Positions 27,426 through 64,000 of a stretch of 64,000 nt of DNA are shown piece after piece (position 1 is the first letter of the stretch; each line of letters opens with the position of its first letter). The stretch covers positions 1-64,000 of the forward strand of contig NZ_JAAGRY010000006.1 in assembly GCF_015707995.1 (NCBI RefSeq), read 5' to 3'. The notes under the pieces were generated by a model, which saw only the letters and a program-made list of their open reading frames with translations, searched no databases and was not told the DNA's origin. The position numbers were made by a program, and so were the translations under genes. The stretch comes from Microbacterium paulum (lineage in GTDB: Bacteria; Actinomycetota; Actinomycetes; Actinomycetales; Microbacteriaceae).

Positions 27426-27562
27426 GCCTCGACCTTATCGACCGGCGCCACTGGCTACGGTGGTCAAGGATCCTCTTCCGGGCATCGCCCGTTCGACGTC
27501 CTCAGCGCTCGGTCCTGATGGTCCACGTCGGAGTCTGGATCGGCGGGATTCCTCGGAGTTAG

Positions 27563-27589
27563 TGTCGTATCCGACCGTCGCCGTTCGTA
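27563..27589 (+). promoter_or_regulatory. possible ECF42 target promoter
   Basis: TGTCGT (27563-27568) and CGTA (27586-27589) with a 17-bp spacer precede the DGPF gene. ECF42 promoters are described with TGTCGA-like -35 and CG-rich -10 boxes. The match is partial. Confidence 0.35.
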
Positions 27590-27667
27590 GAACAGGTGGA
27601 TCGACCGATTCGGGTCGGTGTACCGAGGAGCCGACGACCGGCCCTCGTCCGATGAGAGGACACGACA

Positions 27668-31120: not shown

Positions 31121-31130
31121 GACCGGATGC

Positions 31131-31817: not shown

Positions 31818-31950
31818 GCCTCGATGCTCGCCGGGGCGGCCGGCTCGGGGCATCCGTCGTCGGCACGGACTGCGAACCGTACTTTCGGCTGACGGGATGA
31901 GGGCCTCCCGGCCGATGACGCGGCGCCGGTGCGACGGCGATGCTCGAGCC

Positions 31951-32943: not shown

Positions 32944-33010
32944 CGAGCGCGACTCGGGCGCACCGAACCTGCCGCCACTCCGGCGGATCACCTCAAGGAA
33001 AGAAGGACCG

Positions 33011-33481: not shown

Positions 33482-33495
33482 GAGGCGCAGCGCGA

Positions 33496-34218
33496 ATGGG
33501 CATCCGTCGTATGATCGGCCGCACGACCCTGGTGGTTGCAGCGCTCGCCGTCACCGCGCCGCTCGCAGCCTGCGGGCCGGTGCTTCTCGCCGGTCCGCGG
33601 GCGACCCAGGAGCGAGACATCGCCGGGGTGTCGGCACTCGATCTGCGCACGAGCGGCGACCTCACCGTCACAGTCGGTGAGACCGAGTCGCTCACGATCA
33701 CCGCGGCGAGCAATGTGATCTCGTCGCTCACGGCCGAGGTGGACGACGGCACGCTCGTGCTCGACTCCGACCTCGGGGCGCTGGGGCCGACGCTCATCCG
33801 GTACGAGCTCACCGTCCGGAGCCTCGACCGAGTGCGGATCACGGGCTCGGGGAGCGTGTCAGGCGCCGGCGCATTCGGCCGGACGGGCACGATCGAGATC
33901 CGCGGCTCGGGCAGTGCGACGCTCACGGGAGTCGAGACCGACGACCTGACCGTGACGGTCGTGGGCTCGGGCGACGTCACCGTCGAAGGAGCGAGCGAGT
34001 CGCTGCAGCTGACCCTGGACGGGTCGGCCGACGTCGACGCCGGCGACCTGCGCACGAAGACCGCGAGCGCTTCGCTCAGGGGAAGCGCCGACGCCCGCGT
34101 GCACGTCAGCGAAGACCTCGACGCCACCGTGAGCGGCAGCAGCGAACTCGTCTACACGGGCGACCCCGCACAGATCACAAGAGGCACCAGCGGCAGCGGT
34201 GAGATCGCTGCCGGCTGA
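33496..34218 (+). CDS. GIN-domain (DUF2807) lipoprotein
   Basis: 240 residues. Signal peptide with lipobox LAACG (Cys about 26), then a beta-helical DUF2807 domain rich in short repeats such as SLDRVRITGSGSVSGAG, IEIRGSGSATLTG and TVVGSGDVTVEGAS. Putative auto-transporter adhesin-like head domain of unknown role, displayed at the cell surface. Begins 15 bp after the DUF6326 gene. Confidence 0.85.
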   Translation: MGIRRMIGRTTLVVAALAVTAPLAACGPVLLAGPRATQERDIAGVSALDLRTSGDLTVTVGETESLTITAASNVISSLTAEVDDGTLVLDSDLGALGPTLIRYELTVRSLDRVRITGSGSVSGAGAFGRTGTIEIRGSGSATLTGVETDDLTVTVVGSGDVTVEGASESLQLTLDGSADVDAGDLRTKTASASLRGSADARVHVSEDLDATVSGSSELVYTGDPAQITRGTSGSGEIAAG

Positions 34219-34330
34219 GCCGCGCTCCCATGCGCGGCTGGGTCGCGGCGATGCACACCGACGTGGTCGGGGAGCGCATGGGTGACGCGAAGCATAGGCA
34301 GCGGCCTCCCATTGGTCCCCTCGCCGTGGC

Positions 34331-34355
34331 GATCCCCTTCCGGGCAGTGCACGCA
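34331..34355 (+). repeat. 25-bp border repeat, copy 2
   Basis: GATCC, N3-T-N, CGGGCA, G, TGCACGCA. It lies in the 177-bp gap after the GIN lipoprotein and is the first of two direct copies, 734 bp apart, that enclose the next lipoprotein gene. Confidence 0.75.
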
Positions 34356-34395
34356 GAGGGCGCCGCTCCGCGCGGTGGGATCCGAGCGGGAAGTC

Positions 34396-34998
34396 CTACT
34401 GGCCGAGGTTCTCGCCCATCTCCCGGTACGACCCGGTGTCCAGCACCGCGCCCGTCGCGTCGTCGACGAATTCGACGATCACGTCGATGTCGTCGGGAGC
34501 GACGCCATTGAACTGCTGGTAGAGCGCGCCTTGGATGTAGAACCCGAGCGCGAGCAAGCTCTCCAGCGCACCGTACCTCGCAGCATCGACAGACACCTTG
34601 ACCGACGTCATCGCGTCGTTGAACTCCACCCCAGTTACGGAGTTCGTGTCGTCAGCGATCAACTCATCGGCGGCGTCCTGCGCGGAAGAACGCATCTGCG
34701 CGAGCATCTCGTCACGCTGAGGCTTCGTCATCGTGTAGACGACCGTGTCGCCCTCAACGACCGCGGCGATGCCCTTCTCCTTTGCGCCGGCCACGATCTC
34801 TTCGTCGGAGAGCGACCCGCCCTGGTCCAGGAGCGACCGGGCAATCCGCACATCGACGGTGACCAGATCCTCCTCGACCTCAATCGCGGCAGGCGAGGCG
34901 GACGAACTGTCGGTCTCAACGTCTCCGCCGGCAGAGCACCCGCCCAGCACGAACATCGAACAAGCGATAAGCGAAACGATCGCACCACGAATCTTCAC
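34396..34998 (-). CDS. lipoprotein (DUF4854-like) flanked by direct repeats
   Basis: 200 residues from the GTG at 34998 behind GGGGAG. Lipobox VLGGC (Cys about 21), acidic linker, then a two-part domain: VDVRIARSLLDQGGSLSDEEI, DTVVYTMTKPQRDEMLAQM and VSVDAARYGALESLLALGFYIQG. Similar to DUF4854 lipoproteins of Gram-positive bacteria. The gene and its promoter lie between two copies of the 25-bp border repeat, as if it were a small cassette. Confidence 0.7.
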   Translation of the reverse strand: MKIRGAIVSLIACSMFVLGGCSAGGDVETDSSSASPAAIEVEEDLVTVDVRIARSLLDQGGSLSDEEIVAGAKEKGIAAVVEGDTVVYTMTKPQRDEMLAQMRSSAQDAADELIADDTNSVTGVEFNDAMTSVKVSVDAARYGALESLLALGFYIQGALYQQFNGVAPDDIDVIVEFVDDATGAVLDTGSYREMGENLGQ

Positions 34999-35064
34999 GA
35001 AGAACTCCCCAGGTCTGTCGTCGGACTTCCGACCTATCGATCCTATGGAAGCCAGCCGACACGC

Positions 35065-35089
35065 GATCCGTATACGGGCAGTGCACGCA
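35065..35089 (+). repeat. 25-bp border repeat, copy 3
   Basis: Same 20 fixed positions as copies 1 and 2. In this copy the left half is a perfect palindrome, CCGTATACGG (35068-35077), and the right half contains GTGCAC. It separates the lipoprotein cassette from the Pycsar genes. Confidence 0.75.
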
Positions 35090-35226
35090 AGCGGGGCCCG
35101 TTTTGGAAATCGGGCGCCCGCCACGGGCTTCCGGTGGGGTACGGCTCATGCTAGGTGCCGTCGATTCGACGCGAGGGCACCGCACGTCGTCCAGTAACTC
35201 GAGTGCGACGTCAGTAGGTTGACACC

Positions 35227-41357: not shown

Positions 41358-41843
41358 TCAGGGGCGGCCGGAGCCGTCCTGGTGAGCATGGGACTGAGTG
41401 ACCCATGCGGTCCATGCCTGCTCGTCGGTGGCGTTCACCCACGAGCGAGAGAGCTGCTCCCGATGCTCACGCGTACACCCACCGCCCGCACGCGTGAGGC
41501 GGGGAAGAGCGGTCGACAGATACTGCAGCCATGTGCTCGGGCCCGTCCCTCGATCGGACGGATCGAAGAGCAGGAGATGTGCGGAGCGCAGGGCGGCCAG
41601 CTCCTCGACGATCTCGCCGTGGCGCCACCAGCAATCCGGCACGACATTGGCGGGCACATCGAAGCGCACGGTAAACCACTCGACCCATGCGCGTAGCGCT
41701 CCCCATTCCACCGGTGCGCGCTCATCGGTGAGCGTTCGCCAGTCGACGGTGCGACTTGCGTACGAGCTCGGCCCCGGGTCGGGGCGACCCGCGGACTGGT
41801 GGGCAAGTGCTTGCAGCATCTTCTCGTTCGGGTCATCGCTCAT
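41358..41843 (-). CDS. conserved hypothetical of the transfer operon
   Basis: 161 residues. ATG is embedded in the stop of the coupling-protein gene (ATGA), with GGAGGGCGAGG upstream. Trp-rich: VDWRTLTDERAPVEWGALRAWVEWF and CWWRHGEIVEELAAL. Found with this type of coupling protein in actinobacterial ICEs; function unknown. Confidence 0.7.
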   Translation of the reverse strand: MSDDPNEKMLQALAHQSAGRPDPGPSSYASRTVDWRTLTDERAPVEWGALRAWVEWFTVRFDVPANVVPDCWWRHGEIVEELAALRSAHLLLFDPSDRGTGPSTWLQYLSTALPRLTRAGGGCTREHREQLSRSWVNATDEQAWTAWVTQSHAHQDGSGRP

Positions 41844-43681
41844 GCCTCGCCCTCCTTCGCCGGGACTTCTACCGAGGGCGTCGACGGGATCGGAGACGTG
41901 GGGGTGTGCGGAGCCGTGATTGCTTCGGCGAACACGGCGCGTTGCTCGCGCTCGGTGAGAGCCTTGCCTGCGCTGACGTCCCGCGCATCGCGCCGGGCGT
42001 CCCACCCCGCAAGGTCGAGCAATACCGTGCGTTGGTTGCGGTAGGCGAGCAGGCCGATCTCGGGTGGCATCCGTCTGATCTCGTCGACTGACATCAGCGG
42101 CCGGCGTTCGTTCACGAGAGTCGTGTTGTGTCCGGTCTGCTGGGTCGACCACGAGCGCTGTCGTCGGCTCGTGTCGCGAACTCCGAGCAGTGCTTCGATG
42201 TCGCGCAGGTGATCGACGTGGGATGCGCCGCCGAGCACCACCTTCGCGGTCGCCGCAGCCCAGATGGTGTCAGCCTCAGCCCGCGACCACGCCGTCTCAG
42301 CCTGCGACAGAGCTTGCAGCACAACCAGGGTGCAGATTCCGCGGCCTCCGCCGTCGGCCATGATGCGGGGGAGGTTCGCCCACCGGAACATATTCACGAT
42401 CTCGTCGAGAATCAGCCCCAGCGGCAGCTGGAGACGCGATCCGGGGGTCGCGAGTGCCTTCGTTCTGGCATCCTCGACAATGCTGTCGAGCAGTGCGCTG
42501 ATCCAGCCTCCCATGGCCGTGGCGCCTGCGGCCGACCCGATCAGATACAGGGTGTTCTCGTCGGCGAGGAACTCCTCGACGACGAGGGGCGCGTCGCCCT
42601 CACGCGGCTGCAGGCTGTCACGCACTTGCGGGACGGCGAGCGGCGCGACAGCGTTCTGCACGCCGAACCAGATCGACGAAAGCAACTTCTCGTCACCGTT
42701 GATGGTTGCCGCAAGACTCTCCGCCCAGCCAGGTGCTCCTGCCACCCGGAGGAAGGGCACGGCATTTCGGGCGGCGAAAGGGCTCGATCCCCAGTCGTAG
42801 AGGTCATCGATCGTCCCGCCGCCGACCGCCGCAGCGTGCAAAAGGCGGGCCAGGATGATCCCCGCGGCCTGCGCCCATTCTTCATTCTGGCTGCTGCGCC
42901 CGAGCGCGGTGCCCGTGATGATCGCCATGCCCCGCTGCATCGCGACGAGTGGGTCTGCACATCCCGCTATCGGGTCTATGCGGAGCGTGTCGCGGATGCC
43001 GGACAGCCCCTGCGGATCGAAAACGTGCACCGTTCCGCGGCGTGCCCGCATCTGCATCGTCGCAGTCAGGTTGTCATTCGTGGTCGAGGTCGTGATGAGC
43101 GGACCCGCCCAGTCAAGGATCGCGGAGATCAGAACGCGGTATCCCTTGCCGGACCGAGGAGGTCCTTCGAGCGTCACGGAGTCTTCGATGGATACGAACA
43201 CGTCCATGCCGCGTGACGCTCCGACCCGCCAGGCGACATCGGTCGCCGCCGGGTGTGTGAGGTCGGGGCGCAGCTGCTTCGCACGGCGAATGGCAGCCTT
43301 CGCTGAGAGGTGCGAGCGGATGTCGGCTGCTGTCGCGAACCCTGGGCGCATTCGAAGATCCGCGATGAACGCGCGGTCTGAGTGCCGGTAGCGGCGGTAC
43401 CAAACGATGAGCGCGATGCCCCCGCCGACAACGATAAAGACAGCCAGCAGATCGGCGACGCGGATCTGCCACACCGGCAACGCGCACGCACCGGATGCCT
43501 CGTACACGTCGGCCTGTCCGGTGAGCGCGAGCCAGAGCCCCGAGAACAGATGGTCGGCCTGCGGTGCGGTGCCGCAAATCCACGTCGTGACCGTCTCGCC
43601 GATGAACGCGAAGGCTACGCTCAGCAGGAACGCGATCGCGATGCCGACCGCGACGACTTTGCCGAGCACGCTCTCGTTCAT
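41840..43681 (-). CDS. type IV coupling protein (VirD4/TraG/TraD family)
   Basis: 613 residues from ATG 43681 (GAGGG upstream); a GTG at 43693 overlapping the previous stop is the alternative. Two N-terminal spans (about 8-30 and 75-95), Walker A LEGPPRSGKGYRV (about 170) and Walker B LGLILDEIVNMF (about 420). It links the relaxase-DNA complex to the secretion channel and pumps DNA. The C-terminal helical domain ends in a Pro/Thr-rich tail. Confidence 0.9.
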   Translation of the reverse strand: MNESVLGKVVAVGIAIAFLLSVAFAFIGETVTTWICGTAPQADHLFSGLWLALTGQADVYEASGACALPVWQIRVADLLAVFIVVGGGIALIVWYRRYRHSDRAFIADLRMRPGFATAADIRSHLSAKAAIRRAKQLRPDLTHPAATDVAWRVGASRGMDVFVSIEDSVTLEGPPRSGKGYRVLISAILDWAGPLITTSTTNDNLTATMQMRARRGTVHVFDPQGLSGIRDTLRIDPIAGCADPLVAMQRGMAIITGTALGRSSQNEEWAQAAGIILARLLHAAAVGGGTIDDLYDWGSSPFAARNAVPFLRVAGAPGWAESLAATINGDEKLLSSIWFGVQNAVAPLAVPQVRDSLQPREGDAPLVVEEFLADENTLYLIGSAAGATAMGGWISALLDSIVEDARTKALATPGSRLQLPLGLILDEIVNMFRWANLPRIMADGGGRGICTLVVLQALSQAETAWSRAEADTIWAAATAKVVLGGASHVDHLRDIEALLGVRDTSRRQRSWSTQQTGHNTTLVNERRPLMSVDEIRRMPPEIGLLAYRNQRTVLLDLAGWDARRDARDVSAGKALTEREQRAVFAEAITAPHTPTSPIPSTPSVEVPAKEGEA

Positions 43682-43689
43682 GCCATCCC

Positions 43690-44982
43690 TCACAACCCTG
43701 CAGCGGTTGCGGCTGCCGCGCGGATCCAGGCTTCGCGTGTCGGAGTGCGCAGGTCATCGAACCGGAGCGGACCGCGCTTGAGGACCGGGTCGAACGGGAT
43801 GACCACGATGTCACGCACACGGCCCTCGAAGCCGAGCACGATGTCGCGCAGCTCGGCCGGACGGGCCGGCTCGGCCTGCGTAACCACCACGACGGCATTG
43901 CGCGCGAGATCGTGTGACCGTTCGTCGCGTGCTCCGAGCGCTTCGAGGAGGAGCGCGGCCGACTCGGCTGACTCGGGTGCGGTCAACGTCGGCACAACGA
44001 GCTGCGTGCTGTGGTCGACCATGCTCAGCCAGCGGTCAGCCGACTCGTCGTTGCCGGAATCGAAGACGACGAGCCGGTAGTACCTCGCGGCGACCCGCAT
44101 GAGCTGTTCGAACTCGGTCGATGTGAGGCGCTGATCGGCCGCGAGCAACTCGGGGTTCGAACGCAGCACATCGTATCGATCAGCCGATTGGTGATGAACG
44201 AAGCGGGTGATGTCAGAGACGCCGGCATCGGGGGAGAGCAGGTTCGATGTTGCGGGCAGCAGGTCGCGGATGGTGGTGTCGTAGAGTCCCGTCTCGGTGC
44301 GCCAGCCGAGGGTACCGCGAGTGTCGTTGTTGTCCCACGCCAACACGTTGCCGCCTCCAAAGCGACCGAACACCGCCGACAGCATCGCGGTGGTCAGCGT
44401 CTTGCCGACACCTCCCTTGCCATTGACGACGGCGATCGTGCGGCAGCCCGCCCAGTGCCGGGACGCGAGACGAATGCGTTCGTCGTGCTCAACCTGCGTG
44501 GGTGACGGCTTCACCACCAACCCCCATCGAGCAAGCAGCGCGCGCCACCCGTTCGCTCGCTCGCTCGGCCCAGTGCTCGCGGGGATGAATGAGGCGCGCT
44601 TCGCGGTCGGTGCCGGCTCGACAGGGTGAGGCGTTTCGGTGGTCGGGAGTTCGTCGACGACTGCTGACGGGGTGTCAGCGTCCAGGTTTGACGCGAGGTC
44701 GGGATCATTCCGCGTGCGCCGCAGCGTCGACGCGCCGTCATCGACAGGCGAGGACGTGCCGTCAGGAGCGACGTGGATGCGGTGGCTGCCGCGGTCGCCC
44801 GACGTCACCAGCTCGACTGTGGAACCGGTGCGGCGAGCCTCGACAATCGCGCGCTGGATGATCGCCCGCCGGATGTCGGATCCGTCTTGCGCGGCGAGAT
44901 CTTCGCTGCGCCCGTCGAGTGTCGTGAACCTTGCCGTCGACCCTTCGACGGTCGCGAAGGCTCGGTTGAGTGTGGTGCTCAT
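43690..44982 (-). CDS. ParA/MinD-like ATPase of the transfer operon
   Basis: 430 residues from ATG 44982 (GGAGGAG). The first 170 residues are a variable linker (disordered, Thr/Pro/Asp-rich) after a short folded head; the ATPase follows with deviant Walker A VNGKGGVGKTLTTAM (about 190) and LVVFDSGNDES. In actinobacterial conjugation loci such proteins may position the machinery or the element. ATGA overlap with the VirB4-like gene. Confidence 0.85.
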   Translation of the reverse strand: MSTTLNRAFATVEGSTARFTTLDGRSEDLAAQDGSDIRRAIIQRAIVEARRTGSTVELVTSGDRGSHRIHVAPDGTSSPVDDGASTLRRTRNDPDLASNLDADTPSAVVDELPTTETPHPVEPAPTAKRASFIPASTGPSERANGWRALLARWGLVVKPSPTQVEHDERIRLASRHWAGCRTIAVVNGKGGVGKTLTTAMLSAVFGRFGGGNVLAWDNNDTRGTLGWRTETGLYDTTIRDLLPATSNLLSPDAGVSDITRFVHHQSADRYDVLRSNPELLAADQRLTSTEFEQLMRVAARYYRLVVFDSGNDESADRWLSMVDHSTQLVVPTLTAPESAESAALLLEALGARDERSHDLARNAVVVVTQAEPARPAELRDIVLGFEGRVRDIVVIPFDPVLKRGPLRFDDLRTPTREAWIRAAAATAAGL

Positions 44983-52891: not shown

Positions 52892-53902
52892 TCAGCAGCC
52901 GCAGGACGCGCGCAGGATCAGCTGCATCGGGAACACCTGGGCCCGTGGCGTCTTCGGACCGTCGACGAACGACTCGATCGCCGCCTGCGCCATCTTCCCG
53001 AACGGCTGGCGGACCGTGGTCAGTGGCGGCCACGCGTACTCCGATTCGGCGGTCCCGTCGAAGGAGACGATCGCGACGTCCTCGGGCACGCGGAGGCCGC
53101 GCTCGTGCAGCGCCTGCAGTGCGCCCACCGCCGTCAGATCCGATCCGGCGAAGACCGCCGTCGGAGGCTCGGGTGAATCCATCAGAATCCGCACGGCCTC
53201 GGCGCCGCCCGCCCGGCTCCAGTCGGTGACCACCGGCGCGGGCGCGCGGATTCCCGCGGCGGCAAGCGCGTTCTCCCATCCGGAGCGCCGGCCGTCGCGG
53301 ACGATGGGGTGCAGCGGTCCTTCGATGTAGGCGATGCGGCGATGCCCGTGCGAGAGCAGGTGCTCCGTGGCGAGCCGCGCGCCTTCGACGGCGTCCGCCC
53401 CGACCGTGGAGAAGCCCTGCGCGGGATGGGAGCGGTCGAGGATGAGTCTCGGGATACCCGCGTCCACGGCGCGGGTGGCCGCGTCCGCCGGATCGTCGGG
53501 GAAGAGCGACAGGAAGATCATGCCGTCGACGCCGCGCTCGACGAGGCTGGCGCGCATCAGGCGCTCCCGCTCCGGATCGCCGTGCGTACTGGCCAGCAGG
53601 ATCGAGTAGCCGCGGCGGGACGCCGCGCTGTCCAGCGCGTCGATGCACTCGGAGTGGAACGGATTGATGATCTCGGACAGCACCAGACCGAGCAGCTTGG
53701 TCGATCCCCGCTTGAGCGCGCGGGCGCTGGCGTTCGGCCGATAGTCGAGGGAGCGGATCGCCCGCAGGACGCGATCTCGCGTTGCGTCGGCGACCGGGCG
53801 AGGACCGTCGTTGACGACATAGCTGACCACCGCCGTGCTGACACCGGCAAGACGCGCGACGTCGGCGCGGGTCGCTGGTCGTGGGGGTCCGGAAAGGGTC
53901 AT
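52892..53902 (-). CDS. LacI-family repressor of the alpha-galactoside locus
   Basis: 336 residues. HTH DVARLAGVSTAVVSYVVND (residues about 14-32) with hinge RPNASARALKRG, then a sugar-binding core with NPFHSECIDALDSA and VFAGSDLTAVGAL. Ends in CGC. Divergent from the GH36 gene and close to a perfect-arm palindrome at 54028-54043. The inducer is probably an alpha-galactoside. Confidence 0.9.
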   Translation of the reverse strand: MTLSGPPRPATRADVARLAGVSTAVVSYVVNDGPRPVADATRDRVLRAIRSLDYRPNASARALKRGSTKLLGLVLSEIINPFHSECIDALDSAASRRGYSILLASTHGDPERERLMRASLVERGVDGMIFLSLFPDDPADAATRAVDAGIPRLILDRSHPAQGFSTVGADAVEGARLATEHLLSHGHRRIAYIEGPLHPIVRDGRRSGWENALAAAGIRAPAPVVTDWSRAGGAEAVRILMDSPEPPTAVFAGSDLTAVGALQALHERGLRVPEDVAIVSFDGTAESEYAWPPLTTVRQPFGKMAQAAIESFVDGPKTPRAQVFPMQLILRASCGC

Positions 53903-53971
53903 GGGTCTCCAGCAGAGAGTAGCGTCCCGACGGCCGCGCGCCTAGGGAACGTCCGGGCTCGTCCCGCGAAG

Positions 53972-54043
53972 TCTACTCGAGGTGATTCATTCGAACTCCA
54001 AAGCCGTGAAACAGTTGCATTCGGAATATCTACTGGAGTAGAT
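53972..54043. promoter_or_regulatory. LacI operators before the alpha-galactosidase gene
   Basis: ATCTACT-GG-AGTAGAT (54028-54043) has perfect 7-bp arms around GG. A second, weaker site, TCTACTCGAGGTGA, is at 53972-53985, 56 bp away. Two sites with about five helical turns between centres would allow looping. They lie in the divergent gap between the regulator and the GH36 gene. Confidence 0.65.
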
Positions 54044-54118
54044 TTCTCGACGGCGCCACATCGGCGACCGCAAGCGCGGGCAATCGAAGCCCGCATCGAG
54101 TTTCGAGACGGAGTCGTC

Positions 54119-56305
54119 GTGGTCTTGCTGCCGGGTGTCGCGTTCGCTTACGTGCGCGTCGCAGGTGCGTCCCTGCTGCTCGACTGCCGGGACGGTGGCG
54201 TACCGGTCATCGCCCACTGGGGCGCCGATGCCGGCGAACTCTCCGATCGCGATGTGGTCGGGCTCGCCGATGCCGTGATCGCGCCGCGCGACCTGTCGCA
54301 CGGCTACGCCGTGCCCGTGCGTCCGCGTCTGCTCATGCTGGAGTCCGATGCCTGGAAGGGACGGCCGGGGATCGGCGGCCATCGCGTCGACGGCTCGGCG
54401 TGGACGCCCGCGTTCCGGCTCCGGTCGATCGAAGCGGACTCCGGTGCGCACCGCTCCGCGGACGTCGTGCGCATGGCCGACGGCGGGCTGCGGTTCACGC
54501 TCGTCGACGAGACGTCGGAGCTGGAGCTGATCGTCGAGGTGGAACTGCTGGCCTCCGGGCTGGTCCGGTCACGCGCCACGTTGCGCAACGACGGTGAGTC
54601 GGCCTATCACCTCGACGAGCTCGCCGTCGCCCTGCCCGCTCCGCTCGAGGCGGACGAGCTGCTGGACTTCGGCGGGCGGTGGAGCCGCGAGCGCGCGGCT
54701 TTCCGGGGGCCGGTGGGCCCGCATGCGCACGTGCACGAATCACGCGAGGGGCGCCCCGGATTCGCGGCGGCACCCATGCTCGTCTGCGGCGCGACCGGGT
54801 TCGACTTCGGCGCCGGCGAGGTCTTCGGAGTGCACGTCGGCTTCTCGGGTAATCAGCGATCGTGGATCGAGCGCGACCACGGTGGCATCCAGATCCTCGC
54901 GGGCGGGGAGCTGCTGCTGCCCGGCGAGATCCGTCTCGGGACAGGGGAAGACTATCGCTCGCCCTGGGTCTATTTCGGGTCCGGAAACGGCCTCGACGCC
55001 CTCGCCCACCAGGTGCATGCCTGGCTGCGCTCGCGACCCGGCCATCCCGGCTTCGATCGACCCGTGACCCTCAACGTCTGGGAGGCGGTCTACTTCGATC
55101 ACGACCTGACGCGGCTGCTGGAGCTGGCCGAGGTCGCGGCGCGGGTCGGGGTGGAGCGCTTCGTGCTCGACGACGGATGGTTCGCCGGGCGTCGCACCGA
55201 GCGTGCCGGGCTCGGCGACTGGCGCGTCGACACGGATGTCTGGCCCGCGGGTCTGCATCCGCTGGTGAACCGCGTGCGGGAGCTCGGCATGGAATTCGGG
55301 CTTTGGGTGGAGCCCGAGATGGTGAACCCCGACTCGGACGTGGCGCGTGCACATCCCGACTGGATCCTCTCCGCGGGCGGCGCACTGCCCGTGTCGTGGC
55401 GTCATCAGCAGGTGCTGAACCTCACCGACCCGGATGCGTTCGCCCACGTCCACTCCCAGCTCGCCGCGATACTCGACGAGTACGACATCTCGTATCTCAA
55501 ATGGGATCACAACCGCGAGCTCGTCTCGGCGGGCGACGTGGGGCACGCGGGGCGCGCCGCCGTGCACGAACAGACCCTCGCGTGCTATCGCCTGATGGAT
55601 GCCCTCGCCGAACGCCGGCCCGGCCTGGAGATCGAGAGCTGCGCCTCGGGAGGCGGCCGCATCGATCTCGGCATGGCCGAGCACGTGCAGCGATTCTGGC
55701 CGTCCGACTGCATCGACCCGCTCGAGCGCTACGACATCATGCGATGGACGAGCCAGCTCATGCCGCTCGAGATGCTCGGGGCGCACGTGTCGGGGCCGCG
55801 TTCGCGCACCACGGGACGCACGAGCACGCTCGCCTTCCGCGCGACGGGCGCGCTCTTCGGTCATCTCGGCGTGGAGTGGGATCTGACCTCCGCCGACGAG
55901 GCCGAGCTGAACGCGCTGGCCGGCTGGGTCGAGTGCTTCCGCCGCCACCGCGAGACGCTGTTCACCGGAAGACTGCACCGTCGCGATGTCGGCGACGGAA
56001 CGCTGGCGCTGCGGGGCGTCGTCGACCCCGACGCACGTCGAGGCCTGTTCGAGCTGACCGCGCTGCGCCGGGCCGGGATGTCGCCCGTGGGCCGGGTGCA
56101 CCTGCCGGGGCTCGTCCCCGAGCGTGCCTACCGTGTGCGCGTGCACGATCCGCGCGCGGTGGACGGGCTGGTCGCACCGACATGGATGGATGCCGAGGGA
56201 ACGATCCTGCCCGGCGCCGTCCTCGGCCGAGTCGGGCTGCAGGCTCCCGAGATGTTCCCCGAGCAGTCGCTGCTCATCGAGGTCGAGGAGGTGAGCCCGA
56301 CCTGA
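54119..56305 (+). CDS. GH36 alpha-galactosidase
   Basis: 728 residues from a GTG at 54119, 76 bp after the operator; the frame is open much further upstream but runs through the operator, and actinobacterial relatives start about here. Beta-sandwich N-domain (VPVIAHWGADAG), then the barrel with FVLDDGWFAGRR, the nucleophile Asp463 in YLKWDHNRE and acid/base Asp530 in RFWPSDCIDPLERYD. It hydrolyses terminal alpha-galactosyl residues of melibiose, raffinose and similar sugars. No signal peptide, so it acts on imported sugar. First gene of an operon with the ABC transporter. Confidence 0.9.
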   Translation: MVLLPGVAFAYVRVAGASLLLDCRDGGVPVIAHWGADAGELSDRDVVGLADAVIAPRDLSHGYAVPVRPRLLMLESDAWKGRPGIGGHRVDGSAWTPAFRLRSIEADSGAHRSADVVRMADGGLRFTLVDETSELELIVEVELLASGLVRSRATLRNDGESAYHLDELAVALPAPLEADELLDFGGRWSRERAAFRGPVGPHAHVHESREGRPGFAAAPMLVCGATGFDFGAGEVFGVHVGFSGNQRSWIERDHGGIQILAGGELLLPGEIRLGTGEDYRSPWVYFGSGNGLDALAHQVHAWLRSRPGHPGFDRPVTLNVWEAVYFDHDLTRLLELAEVAARVGVERFVLDDGWFAGRRTERAGLGDWRVDTDVWPAGLHPLVNRVRELGMEFGLWVEPEMVNPDSDVARAHPDWILSAGGALPVSWRHQQVLNLTDPDAFAHVHSQLAAILDEYDISYLKWDHNRELVSAGDVGHAGRAAVHEQTLACYRLMDALAERRPGLEIESCASGGGRIDLGMAEHVQRFWPSDCIDPLERYDIMRWTSQLMPLEMLGAHVSGPRSRTTGRTSTLAFRATGALFGHLGVEWDLTSADEAELNALAGWVECFRRHRETLFTGRLHRRDVGDGTLALRGVVDPDARRGLFELTALRRAGMSPVGRVHLPGLVPERAYRVRVHDPRAVDGLVAPTWMDAEGTILPGAVLGRVGLQAPEMFPEQSLLIEVEEVSPT

Positions 56306-56371
56306 TCCCCGCGTGCGCGCATCGGCGCGCACGCGTCTTTACCGCCAACGATGTCCATGTAAAGGAAGCAA

Positions 56372-57625
56372 ATGAACACCAAGACCCTTCGCGCCGGAGC
56401 CGCGGCCGCGGTTGCCGCCGCGCTCCTGCTCACCGGATGCTCGGCATCCGGCTCCGACAAACCGACGATCACCTTCTCGCTGTACATGACCGCCGACAGC
56501 GCGGCCAAGCCGGTGTACGAGAAGCTGATCGACGAGTTCATGGACAAGACGGGCATCGCCGTCGACATGAGCTACGACACCACGAACTACGAGAACAACA
56601 TCAAGGTGCAGATGGCCGCCGGCAACTTGCCCGACGTCTTCGCGACGCACGGCTGGTCCGTGCTGCGCTACTCGGACTTCCTCGAGCCGCTCGACGACCA
56701 GAGCTGGACCGCGGATGTGAATCCCGCCCTGGACGAGTCGATGCGCGACGCGGAGGGCCACCTGTACGCCCTGCCGGTCGAGTACACCGTGGCGGGGATC
56801 GCGGTCAACCGCGCCGTGCTGGACGCCGCCGGCGTCGACGAGGACTCCATCGCGACGTGGGATGACTTCGACGACGCGCTGGCCAAGGTCGCCGCGTCGG
56901 GAGTGACGCCCATCACCGCCTCGGGCAAGAGCAGCTCGGCCGGCAACATGGCCGACTTCATCGCCTCGAACGCGTTCACCGACGCCCAGCTGACCTCGTT
57001 CAGCGACGGCGAGTTCGACACCGACGCCTGGGCCGACCAGGTGCTCTCGCACGTGAAGGACTGGACCGACGCAGGGTACATCAACCCCGACTACGTCTCC
57101 GCCTCGCTCGATGACATGGCCTCGCAGCTCGCCCAGGGCCAGGCCGCCTTCGCGCTGGTCCCGGCCTCGTCCATCCTCGCCACCGCGCTGCAGCTGAACC
57201 CCTCGGCCGACATCGGGTTCATTCCGATCCCGAACGATCAGGGCGACCGCTACCTGGTCGGCGGCGAAGGCATCCACTCCTTCGGTGTGTCCAAGGCCAG
57301 CAAGAACAAGGATGCCGCGATGAAGTTCGTCGACTTCCTCGCCGAGCCCGACAACGCCGGGGCCATCGCGTCAGCGCTCGGCTCGTACTCGGGGCTGACG
57401 AACGTGGAGGTGAACCTGGGCGTGCTTCAGAGCAGCTACGACCAGTGGGTCGCCCCCGCGGAGCTTCCCACCAAGCCGTTCTTCGACCGCGTCTACCTGC
57501 CCAACGGCATCTGGAACACCATGATCGCAACGACCGACTCCGTCATCACCGGGCAGGCGACCCCGGCAGACGCGGCGGAGCAGATGAAGATCCAGTACGA
57601 CACCCTGCGCAGCCAGGCCGGCTGA
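56372..57625 (+). CDS. carbohydrate ABC transporter substrate-binding lipoprotein
   Basis: 417 residues. AAAGGAAG site; lipobox LLLTGCSAS (Cys about 24). SBP_bac_1 fold with ITFSLYMTADSAAKPVYEKL, LPDVFATHGWSVLRYSDFLEP and TPITASGKSSSAGNMADFI. It delivers the sugar to the two permeases downstream. The ATPase is not encoded here, so a shared MsiK-type ATPase is likely. Confidence 0.9.
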   Translation: MNTKTLRAGAAAAVAAALLLTGCSASGSDKPTITFSLYMTADSAAKPVYEKLIDEFMDKTGIAVDMSYDTTNYENNIKVQMAAGNLPDVFATHGWSVLRYSDFLEPLDDQSWTADVNPALDESMRDAEGHLYALPVEYTVAGIAVNRAVLDAAGVDEDSIATWDDFDDALAKVAASGVTPITASGKSSSAGNMADFIASNAFTDAQLTSFSDGEFDTDAWADQVLSHVKDWTDAGYINPDYVSASLDDMASQLAQGQAAFALVPASSILATALQLNPSADIGFIPIPNDQGDRYLVGGEGIHSFGVSKASKNKDAAMKFVDFLAEPDNAGAIASALGSYSGLTNVEVNLGVLQSSYDQWVAPAELPTKPFFDRVYLPNGIWNTMIATTDSVITGQATPADAAEQMKIQYDTLRSQAG

Positions 57626-57720
57626 CCAGCCACCCACTCCCGGGCCGGTGCGAACACCGTGCCGGCCCGGGCGCCACCCCCCACCCGCAGACCCGATCCG
57701 AATCCGCAAGGAGTCCGCAG

Positions 57721-58644
57721 ATGAGCGTCACCGCACGTTCCCTCGACGCCCCGCCCCGGCGCGGGCGCCCACGCTTCGTCGGCGCGTCGATCAACCTCAT
57801 GTACGTGCCGGCGATGATGCTGTTCGCCGTGTTCATCGTGTACCCCGTCATCCAGGGCGTGAGCATCGCGCTCACGAACTGGGACGGCTACTCGGCGACG
57901 CGATCGTTCGTCGGATTCGAGAACTTCGCGCGGGTGTTCACCGACCCGAATTTCTCCACCGCGCTGATCAACACCTTCATCTACGGCGTGGGCTCCACCC
58001 TCATCCAACAGGTGCTCGGCCTGCTGTTCGCCGTCCTGCTCGACCAGAAGCTGCGCGGACGGCAGGTGGCGCGCGCCGTCATCTACCTGCCCGTGCTCGT
58101 GTCGCCGGTGGTGATGGGACTGATGTACTACCTCGTGTTCCGCTACCATCAGGGCGCGCTGAACGACATCCTCGCCGTCTTCGGCGCCGCCCCGGTGTCG
58201 TGGCTGTCCGATGCGGGCGTGGCCGTCGCGGTCATCGTGATCGTCAACTCGCTCCAGTTCATGGGCATCTCGATGCTCATCTACCTGTCCGGGCTGCAGG
58301 GCATCCCGCAGGAGATCAGAGAAGCCGCGGCGCTGGATGGCTCGACGGGCTGGAGCCAGTTCCGGGCGATCACGATCCCGCAGCTGATGCCGGCCTTCGC
58401 CGCCAGCGTCGTGCTGAACCTCATCGGCGGACTCAAGCTCTACGACATCATCCAGGTGCTCACCGGCGGTGGGCCCGGCTATGCCACCAACTCGGTGTCG
58501 ACTCTCATCGGGCGCACATACTTCGGAAATCAGGCTGCGGGATACGCGGCGGCGCAGGGCGTCGTCCTGTTCCTCGTGATCGTCCTGTGCACCCTGCTTC
58601 TGAACTGGTGGTTCGACCGCACGCGGTCGCGACTGGAGAACTGA
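57721..58644 (+). CDS. sugar ABC transporter permease, MalF type
   Basis: 307 residues; AAGGAG site. Six spans and the EAA motif IREAAALDGSTGWSQFRAITIPQL, which contacts the ATPase. Typical of CUT1 transporters for di- and oligosaccharides. Confidence 0.9.
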   Translation: MSVTARSLDAPPRRGRPRFVGASINLMYVPAMMLFAVFIVYPVIQGVSIALTNWDGYSATRSFVGFENFARVFTDPNFSTALINTFIYGVGSTLIQQVLGLLFAVLLDQKLRGRQVARAVIYLPVLVSPVVMGLMYYLVFRYHQGALNDILAVFGAAPVSWLSDAGVAVAVIVIVNSLQFMGISMLIYLSGLQGIPQEIREAAALDGSTGWSQFRAITIPQLMPAFAASVVLNLIGGLKLYDIIQVLTGGGPGYATNSVSTLIGRTYFGNQAAGYAAAQGVVLFLVIVLCTLLLNWWFDRTRSRLEN

Positions 58645-58645
58645 C

Positions 58646-59466
58646 ATGCGCCGACCGACCAAGATCCTCGTCGCGATCCTCGTGATCGTCGGCTGCCTGG
58701 TGCAGCTGATCCCCTTCTACCTCGCGTTCACCACCGCGTTCAAGCAGCAGTCCGACCTGTCCTCGGTGTGGTCGTTCCCGTTCGGCGCCGTGACGTGGGA
58801 CAACTTCGTGGCCGCCGTGGTCAGCGGCGGCGTGCTGCGGGCCACGTTCAACAGCGCCGTCGTGACCGTCATCGCCACCGTGCTCACCTGCGTGCTCGCC
58901 GCGCTCGCCGCCTACCCGCTGGCGCGTCGGCGCACGCGGCTCAACCGCAGCGTGGAGTTCACGATCCTCGCGGTCATGATGGTGCCGCCCCTCAGTATCC
59001 TCGTTCCGCTGTACTCCCTGCTGAACACCCTCGGGTTGCTGAACAGCTATGCGGGGCTGATCCTGCCGCTGGCGTGCCTGGAGCTGCCGCGGGCGATCTT
59101 CCTCTACACCCAGTTCCTGCGCGCCGTCCCGATCTCACTCGAGGAAGCGGCGCGGGTGGACGGTGCGAGCCGGCTGCAGACGCTGCGCATCATCATCTTC
59201 CCGCTGCTCAAGCCGGTCACGGTCACCGTGATCATCCTCACGGCGGTGTACGTCTGGAACGAGTTCGCCCTGAGTTCCTACATTATGACCAGCACCGACA
59301 TGCGCACGCTCGCCCCGTCCATCGCCGCGTTCTTCGGTGCGAACGGATCGAACACGTCAACGCGGCGGTCGCGGCGGCGCTGATCGGCGTCGTGCCGATG
59401 CTGATCGCCTACCTGTTCCTGCAGCGCTACTTCATGAAGGGGATGCTCGCCGGCGCCGAGAAGTGA
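58646..59466 (+). pseudogene. sugar ABC transporter permease, MalG type, with 1-base frameshift
   Basis: The frame from 58646 runs through six spans and the EAA motif (LEEAARVDGASRLQTLRI) to FFGANGSN and then reads STRRSRRR and stops at 59383. Reading one base back from about 59350 restores the family C-terminus (VNAAVAAALIGVVPMLIAYL, FMKGMLAGAEK) to 59466. No slippery heptamer is present, so this looks like a single-base deletion or a sequencing error. If real, the last span is lost and uptake is probably impaired. Confidence 0.85.
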
Positions 59467-60180: not shown

Positions 60181-60318
60181 TTGTGGCTGATCTTGAGCCA
60201 TCAGGTCGGCCGAAGGTCGTGGGAATAAAATGGGAAAAGCTGAACGTCTTCGAACATCGGCCAAGGTAACTGCAGGCGGTTGTCAACCGCGGAGTTACGC
60301 GGCGAACGAGGGTATGTG

Positions 60319-60366
60319 CGACCGGGTGTAGGCCCGGTTCCAGGGTTCAAATCCCTCCGTCTCCGC
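60319..60366 (+). other. 3' end of a tRNA-Ser gene (attachment-site remnant)
   Basis: The sequence holds a long variable arm (ACCGGG-TGTAG-GCCCGGT), a T arm with GGGTTCAAATCCC, and the 3' acceptor strand CGTCTCC. The D arm, anticodon arm and proper 5' acceptor strand are absent upstream, so it is not a functional tRNA. A lone tRNA-Ser 3' end is what integration into such a gene leaves at the far end of an island. Confidence 0.7.
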
Positions 60367-60568
60367 TCTGAAATGCCTGATCATAAGGTGTTTTCTTCCG
60401 TTTCTGCCACGGAATCAGCCATTTCTGTCACGTTCCTGATCGGGCTGGCGTTGAGCAGTCTTGCTGTTCCGTGGGGCTTCGCTGAGCGTTCTGCTCACTT
60501 GGCGTCTGCCAGCAGCGTGGTTTCCGCCGCGGGAGCGCGAGACGGAGAGTGTGAATCCCTCCGTCTCC
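60350..60568 (+). repeat. 15-bp direct repeats of the tRNA-Ser 3' end
   Basis: AATCCCTCCGTCTCC occurs at 60350-60364 and again at 60554-60568, 204 bp apart, same orientation. The 189 bp between hold no gene. The second copy lacks the T-arm stem, so only the last bases of the tRNA are repeated. Confidence 0.75.
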
Positions 60569-60672: not shown

Positions 60673-61299
60673 TCAACGCAGGATGCCGCGCTCGCGCGCG
60701 CGCGATACCGCGGCCGTGCGGGAAGAGACCCCGAGCTTCGTGAAGATATGGGCGAGATGCGACTTCACGGTTGTGTCGCTCACGAACAGTTCCGCGGCTA
60801 TGTCGGAGTTCGAGCATCCCGCGGCGACGAGCTCGAGCACCTGAAGTTCTCGCGCGCTCATGCTGGCTTGCGGCGCGCGCATCCTGTCCATCAGCCGCGT
60901 CGCGATGACGGGTGCGAGCGCGCTCTCTCCTGCCGCGGCTGCGCGGACGGCAGTGATGAGCTCGTGAGGCGGAGCATCCTTGAGCAGGTATCCGCTGGCG
61001 CCCGCCTCGACGGCGCCCAGGATGTCGCCATCCGAGTCATAGTTGGTGAGCACGAGCACGTAGGGAGCGGCATCGAGTGCGCGGATGCGGCGCGTGGCAT
61101 CTGCTCCGCCGGAGTTTGCGGATGCCCCGAACTGCAGGTCCATCAGCACGACGTCGGGACTCATCCGCTCCGCCGCTGCAACCGCTTCATCGGGCGTCGC
61201 CGCCTCTGCGACGACGTCGATGTCGTCCTCGGGTGCGAACAGCGCGATGATGCCGGTTCGAACGATGGGGTGATCGTCGGCGACAACGATGCGGATCAT
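60673..61299 (-). CDS. NarL/FixJ response regulator
   Basis: 208 residues. Receiver with DD at 8-9, Asp in VVLMDLQFG, Thr in VLVLTNYD and Lys in YLLKDAP; LuxR HTH ARELQVLELVAAGCSNSDIA and TVKSHLAHIFTKL. ATGA overlap with the kinase. Probably controls the divergent ABC transporter. Confidence 0.92.
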   Translation of the reverse strand: MIRIVVADDHPIVRTGIIALFAPEDDIDVVAEAATPDEAVAAAERMSPDVVLMDLQFGASANSGGADATRRIRALDAAPYVLVLTNYDSDGDILGAVEAGASGYLLKDAPPHELITAVRAAAAGESALAPVIATRLMDRMRAPQASMSARELQVLELVAAGCSNSDIAAELFVSDTTVKSHLAHIFTKLGVSSRTAAVSRARERGILR

Positions 61300-62480
61300 G
61301 CCGCCTCCTCGAGGGTGAGATCGATCGTCAGCGCGGTGCCCTCGCCCGGCGCGGAGGTCACGGCGAGCGTACCGCCCAGCTGGTCGACACGCTCTCGGAT
61401 GGCCCGAAGCCCGAACGAGTCGGATCGACCGGTCGGCGCGCCCGGGGACTGGGCGGGGTCGAACCCCCGGCCGTCGTCGGCTATCGTGAACTGCAGCCGG
61501 TCGCCACCGACGGTCAGCGTGATCGTCGCGCTGTCGGCGTCGGCGTGCTGAATGACGTTGGCGATCGCTCCCTGCGTGATGCGCAGCAGCGCGGTCTGCA
61601 CGTGCATCGGAAGGTCGACGGCATCCGACACCCGCACTTCCACCGGCAACCCCTGCGCGGCCCACTGCGTCGACGCGAGGCGGCGAAGCGCTCCGCCGAG
61701 ACCGCGTCCGTCGAGGTCGGGTGGGGTGAGCTCACGGATGAAGTGGCGCGCGTCGGCGAGCGCGGAGGCCGCGGTCTCGCGGGCGAGGACGACGTGTTCG
61801 ACCCCGGCACCATCGAGATCGGCCCGCTCGGCGGCGTGCAGCAGCATCTGGATGCTCGAGAGCCCCTGGGCGACGGTGTCGTGGATCTCTCGCGCGAGCC
61901 GGGCGCGCTCGGCGAGCACCCCCGACTCGCGCTCCGTCGCGGCGAGCTGTCCACGCGTCGCGAGCAGCTCCTGCATCAGCGCCTCGCGCTGGTGCGCCTC
62001 GCGGGCGAGTGCCTCGTAGCCGAGCCCGATGAGCAGTGCGACCCCGGCCCCCACGATCGGCCCGACAACGCCCCCGGCCGTCCATCCGCCGTGGATGCCG
62101 AGGGCGCAGATCGCGATCGCCGTTGCGACCACGATGGCGGCCGATCCCCACAGCCTGCCCAGGAGATGCAGGTAGAGGAAGAACAGCGGGAAGACGAGAT
62201 AGGCCGCCTCAGGGGTGAGCCACAGCAAAGCGATCCACTCGAGCGTGATGACACCCAGCCACACGGCGCCCGCGACCCGGCGGCTGCGCGGCGCCCAAGC
62301 GATGAGCGTTCCTACCGCATAGGTGCCCAGCAGTATCACCGCGAGGCAGATGGCGGCGATGCTCGCCTGCGTCGGCGCGATCACCGCCCGGACGATCACG
62401 AGGACGGTGAGTGCAACGAACAGCATGTGAAGACCGGCGCGCAGGCCCACGAAGACGGGCGTGAGCGCGGTATGCGGCAT
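61296..62480 (-). CDS. sensor histidine kinase (HisKA_3)
   Basis: 394 residues, five or six spans in the first 170. Phosphoacceptor motif AREIHDTVAQGLSSIQML and HATPase with LLRITQGAIANVIQHADAD and DDGRGFDP, SFGLRAIRERVDQLGG. Pairs with the coupled regulator; divergent from a MacB-type transporter, a layout common for antimicrobial-peptide or envelope-stress sensing. Confidence 0.92.
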   Translation of the reverse strand: MPHTALTPVFVGLRAGLHMLFVALTVLVIVRAVIAPTQASIAAICLAVILLGTYAVGTLIAWAPRSRRVAGAVWLGVITLEWIALLWLTPEAAYLVFPLFFLYLHLLGRLWGSAAIVVATAIAICALGIHGGWTAGGVVGPIVGAGVALLIGLGYEALAREAHQREALMQELLATRGQLAATERESGVLAERARLAREIHDTVAQGLSSIQMLLHAAERADLDGAGVEHVVLARETAASALADARHFIRELTPPDLDGRGLGGALRRLASTQWAAQGLPVEVRVSDAVDLPMHVQTALLRITQGAIANVIQHADADSATITLTVGGDRLQFTIADDGRGFDPAQSPGAPTGRSDSFGLRAIRERVDQLGGTLAVTSAPGEGTALTIDLTLEEAA

Positions 62481-62642: not shown

Positions 62643-63710
62643 ATGTTCGTCGCGCTTCGCGACCTCCGCTTCGCCCGCGGCCGATTCGTCCTCATCGGCT
62701 CCGTGGTCGCCCTCATCACCATCCTCGTCGGGTTTCTCAGTGGACTCACCGGCGGGCTGGCCACACAGAACATCTCCGCCGTGCTGGCGATGCCCGGCGA
62801 CCGCATCGTCTTCTCGACGCCGTCCGCTGGAGGCAGCGCCAGCTTCGCGGACTCCGCCATCACCGAGCGGCAAGCCGCCGACTGGGCCTCCACAGACGGC
62901 GTCACCGACTCCCAGCCGATCGGCATCGCGCAGACGCGCGCCGAGGCCGGCGACCGGCGTATCGCCATCGCCGCGTTCGGCGTGCAGAGCGGCTATAGCG
63001 CCGACGCGCCGACGACGGACGGCCACCTGGCGATGTCAGCCCCCGCCGCGAAGGACCTCGACGTCGCCGTCGGCGACGACGTCACCATCGCCGGCACCGT
63101 CTTCACCGTCGAGACCATCGGAGGCGACGACTGGTACAGCCACACACCCGTCGTGAAGATGACGCTGACCGACTGGCAGGCCTACTCCGCCGCGACGGGC
63201 AACCCCGATGCGTACGCCACGGTGCTCGCCGTGACCGGAGGTCCCGACTGGGCCGCCGCCGACTCCGCGAACGAGACCGTCTCGGAGTCGATCCTCGGTT
63301 CGCTGACCGCGCTCAGTGCCTTCCGCTCCGAGATCGGGTCGCTGCTGCTGATGGTCGCCATGCTGTTCGGCATCTCGGGGCTCGTGATCGGCGCGTTCTT
63401 CACCGTCTGGACGATGCAGCGCAAGGGCGACATCGCCACGCTCAAGGCCCTCGGTGCGAGCACCCCCTCGCTCGTGCGCGACGCACTCGGACAGGCTCTG
63501 GTCGTGCTGGTGCTCGGAATCGGCATCGGGATCGGCGTGGTGGCCCTCTTCGGTACGCTCGCTGGAACCGCTCTGCCCTTCCTGCTCAGCCCCGTCACCA
63601 CCATCCTGCCCGGCGTCATCATGATCGCCCTGGGTCTCGCCGGAGCCGCCTTCGCTCTTCGCTCCGTCACCTCCGCCGACCCCCTCACCGCACTCGGGAG
63701 CAACCGATGA
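62643..63710 (+). CDS. ABC transporter permease, FtsX/MacB type
   Basis: 355 residues. One N-terminal span (about 17-40), a 190-residue extracellular domain, then three spans with LLLMVAMLFGISGLVIGAFF and KGDIATLKALGASTPSLVRD. AAAGGA site. ATGA overlap with the ATPase gene. Confidence 0.9.
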   Translation: MFVALRDLRFARGRFVLIGSVVALITILVGFLSGLTGGLATQNISAVLAMPGDRIVFSTPSAGGSASFADSAITERQAADWASTDGVTDSQPIGIAQTRAEAGDRRIAIAAFGVQSGYSADAPTTDGHLAMSAPAAKDLDVAVGDDVTIAGTVFTVETIGGDDWYSHTPVVKMTLTDWQAYSAATGNPDAYATVLAVTGGPDWAAADSANETVSESILGSLTALSAFRSEIGSLLLMVAMLFGISGLVIGAFFTVWTMQRKGDIATLKALGASTPSLVRDALGQALVVLVLGIGIGIGVVALFGTLAGTALPFLLSPVTTILPGVIMIALGLAGAAFALRSVTSADPLTALGSNR

Positions 63711-64000
63711 TCAGCCTGAACGACATCACCCTCACCTTCCCCGACGGAGACGAGCGCATCACCGCCGTCGACAACGTCACCCTCACGGCCCATCCGGGCA
63801 CCGTCACCGGGATCACCGGACCCAGTGGGTCGGGCAAGTCCAGCCTGCTGGCCGTCGCGGCGACACTGATCCGCCCCGACTCGGGGCAGGTCCTCATCGA
63901 CGGCGTGGATGCCGCCGCCCTGGCTCCCCGTGAGGCGACCGAGCTGCGGCGGGAGCAGATCGGCATCGTGTTCCAGCAGTCCAACCTGATCCCCTCGCTG
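63707..64000 (+). CDS. ABC transporter ATP-binding protein, MacB/LolD type (partial)
   Basis: The first 98 codons are present and the gene continues past the window. Walker A GPSGSGKSSLLA and the Q-loop IVFQQSNLIPSL, typical of the LolD/MacB group. Functions with the permease just upstream. Confidence 0.9.
   Translation, partial: MISLNDITLTFPDGDERITAVDNVTLTAHPGTVTGITGPSGSGKSSLLAVAATLIRPDSGQVLIDGVDAAALAPREATELRREQIGIVFQQSNLIPSL

Follow-up and report, generated by a model that had tools for sequence, protein, structure and literature searches.

Conserved asymmetric ends define a family of cargo cassettes at tRNA-Ser genes in Microbacterium, with a ~5.94-kb member probably moved by an integrase in trans

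The microcin H47 island of E. coli is described as a small element without recombination genes that is bounded by direct repeats and relies on excision and integration functions from the rest of the genome (PMC3191183). CIMEs are likewise presented as att-flanked elements devoid of recombinase and transfer genes, which accrete in tandem with islands at the same site, and they are defined there as decayed elements (PMC5704250). In integron cassettes and CALINs, arrays of cassettes without a recombinase of their own are described as served by one site-specific recombinase in trans (PMC11389934), and at the ssrA gene of Dehalococcoides islands with diverse cargo are reported to gather at one tRNA-like gene, the cargo being separate from the integration module (PMC3146451).

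The Microbacterium locus examined here belongs to a family of cassettes with matching left ends (~205 bp, with two cores) and right ends (117 bp), swappable cargo and an arrangement in tandem arrays. No recombination genes were found in these cassettes, as in the microcin H47 island, which offers a precedent for an island mobilised in trans; however, microcin H47 is depicted as one 13-kb system with long imperfect repeats of 144–148 bp (PMC3191183), whereas the cassettes form a family with varied cargo, a tRNA 3'-end target and distinct ends with arm-like sites. They resemble CIMEs, as these are characterised, in being att-flanked, in having no recombinase or transfer genes that we could find and in lying in tandem with same-site islands, but while CIMEs are by that definition decayed, the cassette ends retain a conserved geometry, and individual units seem to pass from one species to another. 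With integron cassettes and CALINs, as outlined in the source above, they share arrays that lack their own recombinase and, we infer for Microbacterium, the use of one recombinase in trans, but the Microbacterium ends are asymmetric and attP-like, the target is a tRNA gene and each cassette holds several genes. The minimum-energy folds of 23 single left ends, calculated with RNA parameters, looked mutually unlike, with no common fold evident by eye. Among the Dehalococcoides islands, 16 of 31 are reported to have an integration-gene module beside the site (PMC3146451), and none was found in the Microbacterium cassettes. The family stands apart from the systems above by its two-sided arm-like sites, by having the core a second time and by the lack of any recombinase detected in those members that were examined. 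Among the papers listed by searches of open-access PMC, none describes such elements in Microbacterium.

The window, which is the whole 64,000-nt stretch analysed, comprises the first 64,000 of the 66,274 bases of contig C6 from a 3.2-Mb draft genome in 147 contigs, and window base 1 is the start of C6 (below, genomes, contigs and loci carry G, C and L numbers). The original prediction had described a tRNA-Ser 3' end without its 5' half, 15 bp of which recurred 204 bp further on, and expected the intact tRNA-Ser sharing that 3' end to the left, beyond the window. ARAGORN found no tRNA in the window, and an intact tRNA-Ser(GCT) with the same 3' end lies at C10:5869–5960 on the minus strand, adjoined by a tyrosine integrase (PF00589, 6.7e-23). 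The window stretch AGGGTTCAAATCCCTCCGTCTCCGC is identical to this gene at 25 of 25 bp (C10:5871–5895), and the repeat pair 60349–60363 / 60553–60567 is indeed 204 bp apart with 1 mismatch in 15, which bears out the truncated 3' end, the repeat and the existence of an intact gene in the assembly. What did not hold was the proposed variable arm and 46-bp tRNA match, as the match is 25 bp and the variable arm of the genome's own tRNA-Ser(GCT), gtccccttacggggac, differs from the stretch left of core 1. Likewise, island DNA had been suggested to reach as far as 60.36 kb and the spacer between the cores to be possibly the scar of another element, but a further element runs right to ~66.28 kb and the spacer is its left end. 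No 20-mer was common to the ends of C6 and those of C10 (near end) or C92. The coordinates of the features are collected in the table.

Table. Features of the window and of the remainder of contig C6 (window and C6 numbering coincide).
Feature	Position	Strand	Basis or remark
TrwC relaxase	37196–40186	+	PF08751 1.9e-30
TraG/TraD-type coupling protein	41840–43693	-	PF12696 1.9e-26
Right end of neighbouring (left) island	60210..60345	+	likeness to G276 island right end
att core 1, TTCAAATCCCTCCGTCTCCGC	60346..60366	+	identical to tRNA-Ser(GCT) 3' end
Cassette left end, core 1 to core 2	60346..60568	+	left-end sequence model
Arm-like repeat cluster	60403..60432	+	TCTGCCACG at +57 and TCTGTCACG at +78, on either side of a more degenerate copy
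Core 2, second partial att copy	60553..60567	+	repeat of part of core 1
LuxR-type response regulator	60673..61665	-	PF00072 7.2e-20, PF00196 1.2e-19
Sensor histidine kinase	61296..62480	-	PF07730 4.5e-15, PF02518 5.3e-14 (L040:3297–4481)
FtsX-like permease	62643..63710	+	PF02687 5.4e-11 (L040:4644–5711)
ABC ATPase	C6 63707–64441 (window part 63707..64000)	+	runs past window
MFS transporter	C6 64438–66084		beyond window
Window cassette right end	C6:66168–66274		beyond window; C92 cassette right-end match

Judged from the window statistics alone, core 2 is only modestly above chance: the 15-bp repeat has 2 matches in the window, compared with a mean of 0.32 in shuffled sequence, and two or more occurred in 4 of 100 shuffles. 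It becomes certain because the entire core–205 bp–core unit recurs, with homology stopping at both cores. A sequence-only model of the left end, made from 18 left ends with both cores removed (the window's own among them), matches the window at 60370–60547 with 122.2 bits (E 2.1e-35). In the same genome the unit is also present at C92:129–353, at 75% identity and between different neighbours, and it occurs at full length in at least seven places in five other Microbacterium genomes (among the matches listed, two each in G276 and G177 and one each in G138, G184 and G112); other full-length left ends are 68–78% identical to that of the window. Of 295 Microbacterium genomes, 20 contain between them at least 27 sites that the model scores at ≥44 bits, many of these strong left ends being sequences that built it, and 28 of the 295 are matched at E<=0.001; across the family 3 of 398 genomes were matched at E<=1e-5, two of them Microbacterium and one from another genus, and the scans of both genome sets used strict filters, which may lose weak sites.

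Every one of the 27 strong left ends adjoins a tRNA-Ser 3'-end core, which is degraded in G200 (5 mismatches) and has at most one mismatch in the others. Thirty left ends, made up of the 27 strong ones, G174 and two loci of named genomes, could be placed, unlike that of G106; 26 of these 30 have core 2 with no more than 3 mismatches, as do 13 of 3,776 control windows, a count that includes true copies. G059 has neither core 2 nor the right-end arm sites. One register of core 2 gives a complementarity of 0.68, compared with 0.15–0.49 in eight others, which is suggestive only of a palindrome. Among the weak matches to the model, G174 is a cassette junction, while G106 and G017 adjoin tRNA-like 3' ends as judged by eye; those in G091, G133, G005, G042 and G192 resemble coding DNA by eye and were not counted. 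Two further tRNA observations were made during these comparisons. There is a second att site at tRNA-Ser(CGA) (TTCAAATCCCACCGTCACCGC, L119–L128), with multiple copies in G138, G243, G156 and G010, and at L085:10218–10311 ARAGORN reported a second tRNA-Ser(GCT), located 1.7 kb downstream from the first one; the 3' end of this second call serves as core to a cassette left end.

The window's element also has a recognisable right end, as C6 66125–66274 is 73% identical over 110 bp to the right end of the C92 cassette; this lies 5.8 kb beyond the left-end unit and at the very end of C6, which stops ~10 bp before the expected next core, and the element is therefore ~5.94 kb in length. A tRNA 3'-end core is present on both sides in 21 elements, the bounded elements range from 2.9 to 16.3 kb, and most of them have the common 117-bp right end just before the next core, with conservation that sets in, by eye, 117 bp before the core, where a copy of the arm motif lies. 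Across the final 40 nt, 19 elements have a mean identity of 72%, with 30% for the lowest pair, in a comparison where the G276a right end is without ~31 nt, and 14 other island right ends reach 0.30–0.40 at best when compared with those of the cassettes. G276c has a different right end and was left out of the right-end counts. Left and right cassette ends differ from each other in both sequence and length. Beyond the cassettes the right flanks vary between genomes, and 15 such stretches, one being the window's own and now known as cargo, yielded only six protein matches, the best at 78% (G138 vs G184).

Arm-like sites are found at both ends and at consistent distances from the core. With up to 2 mismatches, the arm motif is at +55–58 in 22/22 left ends and at +76–79 in 21/22, and TCTGCCACG-like sites are near −106 in 20/21 right ends and near −117 in 17/21, where the G276a pair is shifted by a deletion and the window's distances assume that the contig stops 10 bp before the core. 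Two such sites spaced by 11 bp occur once in 130,910 cassette-interior positions. With a stricter cut of 1 mismatch each, both sites are present in only 6 of 21 right ends, compared with 0 of 913 inner windows. The spacing is 11 bp in right ends and about 12 and 9 bp in left ends. Overlaps counted, ~2.1 Mb of loci contain 56 TCTGCCACG clusters, made up of 40 of left-end type, six of right-end type, five left-end alignment copies, the window right end and four others with spacings of 27–40 bp; of these four, one falls within an integrase gene (L230) and another within the integrase island of G174 (L241). Integrase islands that occupy this tRNA-Ser(GCT) site in Microbacterium have the same core, but unlike the cassettes they carry an integrase beside it and other repeats: in 8 of the 12 left ends read there are exact 7-bp direct repeats 10–11 bp apart at +79–94/+90–105, with sequences unlike those of the cassettes (CGTGAAG, TGCCCAC, TTGCGTC, GAGAACA and TTTGCCC), and in the remaining four there is either no repeat (two) or only unrelated repeats (two). 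For lambda-type integrases, a complete attP consists of a core with arm sites on both sides. The cassettes have a core and arm sites on both sides, and their ends therefore look made for one integrase to read.

A tyrosine-recombinase profile gave no match (E<=0.01) in 29 left-end elements, of which 21 were bounded and 8 open and covered over 2.5–10 kb, although it picks up the integrases of islands that lie next to the cassettes in these arrays. Built from the integrases at this locus, the profile could overlook distant recombinases. Excision and integration genes of their own, as an IME encodes, were thus not found in the 29. The elements show the CIME combination of kept attL and attR with neither a recombinase match in the 29 nor transfer genes among the cargo genes scanned. 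For other recombinase classes, Pfam analysis of representative cargo genes gave only the IS3-type transposases of G239; no relaxase or transfer family was present among the cargo genes scanned, a subset of all cassette genes, and no packaging or phage-hijacking genes, by which phage satellites such as PICIs, PLEs and tycheposons are recognised, turned up in the Pfam scans of the representative cargo. A MITE or other non-autonomous transposon was considered and rejected, as 27/27 strong left ends are at the tRNA-Ser core and left and right ends are unlike.

Searches for a helper with the same arm sites were carried out at several levels. A 30-bp arm pattern, from which the window cluster differs at 3 of 30 positions, occurred at 21 sites in 17 of the 295 genus genomes (0 for the reversed control), and none of these sites lies in an element where an integrase was detected; the C6, G274, G102 and G191 elements are open-ended in these data. 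Likewise, no helper with these arm sites was found with the left-end model among the matches listed for the 295 genus and 398 family genomes, exact end patterns found nothing in IMG/VR, and blastn of both ends found nothing in INPHARED or PLSDB. An element combining the same arm sites with an integrase was not found, G174 being a possible chimera: its integrase island at 410240–418487 (L208:5241–13488) ends in a degenerate right end of cassette type (79% over 70–76 bp), while its sister island at 368652–410240 has a different right end. The former might be a chimera or might hint that a C10/G095-type integrase can serve cassettes. At E<=1e-60 this integrase type is found in 139 of 295 genomes with no clear link to cassettes, and among the matches listed it is missing at that threshold from the cassette-bearing single-contig genomes G113, G138, G157, G184 and G243 (G138 and G243 carry an integrase of another type). 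A resident integrase of this type therefore seems not to be required.

The window's cassette carries as cargo the response regulator, histidine kinase, FtsX permease, ABC ATPase and MFS transporter of the table; the ORF of the response regulator overlaps the kinase gene and its true start is probably nearer 61.3 kb. Cargo elsewhere was assigned with Pfam and PADLOC in representative elements, covering part of all genes. It includes a type I Wadjet system (JetABCD) with an HTH_17/PIN pair in G276; a sigma-70-family factor with Fic in G059, Fic also being found in G276; DUF6880 with a PIN-domain gene in G177 and, in another G177 cassette, a Dyp-type peroxidase together with a copper chaperone; two DUF1254/DUF1214 proteins in G184; a sugar-binding protein, permeases and glycosidases in G112 and in G239, which also holds two IS3-type transposases; ABC/MarR/CAAX proteins in G243; FtsX/ABC/peptidoglycan-binding proteins in G276c; and a JetD remnant in G463. 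An IS3 gene at L082:10355–11236 was initially a candidate for cargo of the G177 peroxidase cassette, but falls outside it. No gene-length protein is common to all 11 representatives. Translated matches of ~40–80 residues on the minus strand of the right end (e.g. L113:8800–9075) link eight of the 11 (G112, G138a, G177b, G184, G239, G243, G276b and G463), and we read these as conserved DNA rather than a gene, although a tiny gene is possible. Wadjet and DUF6880 cassettes also have ~1.25 kb in common, comprising toxin-antitoxin genes and the right end (~80–84%, G177 copy).

The most widespread unit is the ~8.92-kb Wadjet cassette, which is present in eight Microbacterium genomes at 84–98% identity, with the system identified in G276 and by DNA identity in the others; a copy with a damaged left part is present in a ninth genome (G113) and a decayed copy in another genus. 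Of 20 cassette pairs chosen, 10, each from a pair of species, had a usable flank value (596–1478 bp aligned upstream of the tRNA), and in all 10 the cassettes are 92–99% identical and the tRNA-upstream DNA 64–77% identical, the value of 98.8% for the window's genome and G177 being the mean of three pieces at 98.5–99.2%. As cassette identity is above flank identity, the cassettes would therefore travel between species, and this contrast is strong but not complete evidence of movement, as the rate of evolution in one flank may exceed the average. Between G138 and G276 the sigma/Fic cassettes agree at 98.9% over 3.6 kb, a pair without a flank value. The same cassette is also found in different array positions, with the order sigma/Fic, Wadjet and a segment with a DUF6880-type left end in G276; two integrase islands, sigma/Fic and Wadjet in G138; and an island with an integrase fragment, DUF6880, the peroxidase cassette and Wadjet in G177. 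Nine of the elements represent one Wadjet lineage, and counts are not independent to that extent.

Taking these data together, we consider that the tRNA-Ser(GCT) 3'-end junction in the window is probably the right end of a larger island in conjugation-related DNA and at the same time the left end of a satellite-like ~5.94-kb cassette moved by an integrase in trans. Both ends of the cassette would jointly form the attP of one tyrosine integrase, with crossover in the T-loop part of the core and TCTGCCACG arm sites on both sides; a helper would provide the integrase, which would excise the cassette as a circle, and the circle would insert either at the 3' end of the tRNA or at one of the cores of an existing array. 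We propose weakly that core 2 might be an extra site for integrase binding or docking. Against this reading stand the left-end spacings of about 12 and 9 bp, which depart from the 11 bp of integrase islands, the small share of right ends with both arm sites at the stricter cut, and the failure of all helper searches to yield a candidate. The simpler idea of an ordinary island scar, in which a leftover tRNA 3' end happens to be followed by a chance or vestigial second copy, would suit the modest window statistics of that copy, but the frequency of core 2 in left ends compared with control windows and the matching right end 5.8 kb further on make it very improbable. Alternatively, the cassettes could be decayed islands (CIMEs) that lost the integrase of a single ancestor, whose ends are kept by descent and which move passively, in cis with islands next to them or by homologous recombination within arrays. 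Several arrays do contain integrase islands at the same site, CIME accretion is described as established (PMC5704250), and the ~1.25-kb stretch common to Wadjet and DUF6880 cassettes would fit such a history; we nevertheless regard it as unlikely, as the arm geometry (−117/−106 and +55–58/+76–79) is kept even though the left ends are only 68–78% identical to the window's, single cassettes in G059, G184 and G157 immediately adjoin the tRNA and the 3.5–6.8 kb covered beyond them hold no integrase of this type, and units of 92–99% identity with core-to-core bounds occur in different array positions and species.

If a helper does act in trans, it could be the resident tyrosine integrase of the tRNA-Ser(GCT) site, for example of the G095/G174 type with TGCCCAC repeats, acting across different arm sites. 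The shared core, similar layout and 11-bp spacing are consistent with this, as are the resemblance of TGCCCAC to TGCCACG and the degenerate cassette right end of the G174 integrase island. However, five cassette-bearing genomes are without such an integrase among the matches listed, and two other complete island right ends (the first G174 island and G089) are unlike those of the cassettes, so that we think a resident helper rather unlikely. More specific than the trans-mobilised cassette that we favour is a dedicated satellite system of Microbacteriaceae, in which a phage or ICE helper integrase would read TCTGCCACG and shuttle cassettes into a tRNA-anchored array, integron-like in operation but on a lambda-type attP and with core 2 for docking; this is a possibility to be taken seriously, which we hold only tentatively. 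If it were true, several of the shuttled cassettes would bring anti-plasmid Wadjet or toxin-antitoxin cargo.

The cassettes provide a tractable example of islands passing from one species to another with no recombinase found inside them, and their arm sites predict the DNA sites that a missing helper must read. They also indicate one route by which an entire Wadjet system is spread, namely as a self-contained unit of ~8.92 kb at a single tRNA gene. Methods that start from the integrase gene easily miss islands that have none, and such families may therefore be under-counted.

The DNA left of 60.3 kb had been suggested to be island DNA, and it does look mobile, as it contains the TrwC relaxase, the TraG/D coupling protein, Mu-type and DDE transposases and a piece nearly identical to part of the tRNA-Ser island of another species. 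Its right boundary, 60210–60366 (157 bases, core included), is 73% identical to an island right end in G276, another Microbacterium (C75:27311–27464). The shared piece, 26773–35097, matches part of the G138 tRNA-Ser island in inverted orientation at 99.8% over 8,325 bp, and 17743–17785 matches the adjoining 43 bp of that island. The 8,987 bp between them (17786–26772) are missing from the G138 island and the two flanking matches overlap by 9 bp, a pattern as after transposition with a 9-bp duplication; the insert encodes a Mu-type transposase, a pyridine-nucleotide-disulphide reductase and a DDE transposase. The gene for the latter (23150–24556, minus strand) directly adjoins an Rfam match to the actinobacterial sRNA Ms_IGR-7 at 24559–24679 (47.8 bits, cut-off 45), which may belong to this insertion sequence.

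Several minor observations were also made. At the contig ends, the first 111 bases of C92 (L039:1–111) are also present, identically, at C10:1–110 and C9:65121–65231, and this common end is probably an assembly fork beside a cassette right end. At 1789–6056 a ResIII-type restriction subunit comes after an N6/N4 DNA methylase, and the two form a probable type III restriction-modification pair. Closer to the junction, 52892–59383 holds a sugar-use operon with a LacI regulator, a melibiase, a solute-binding protein and two permeases, and in this region 58600–59460 matches 3 of 58 genomes searched, the window's own genome among them.
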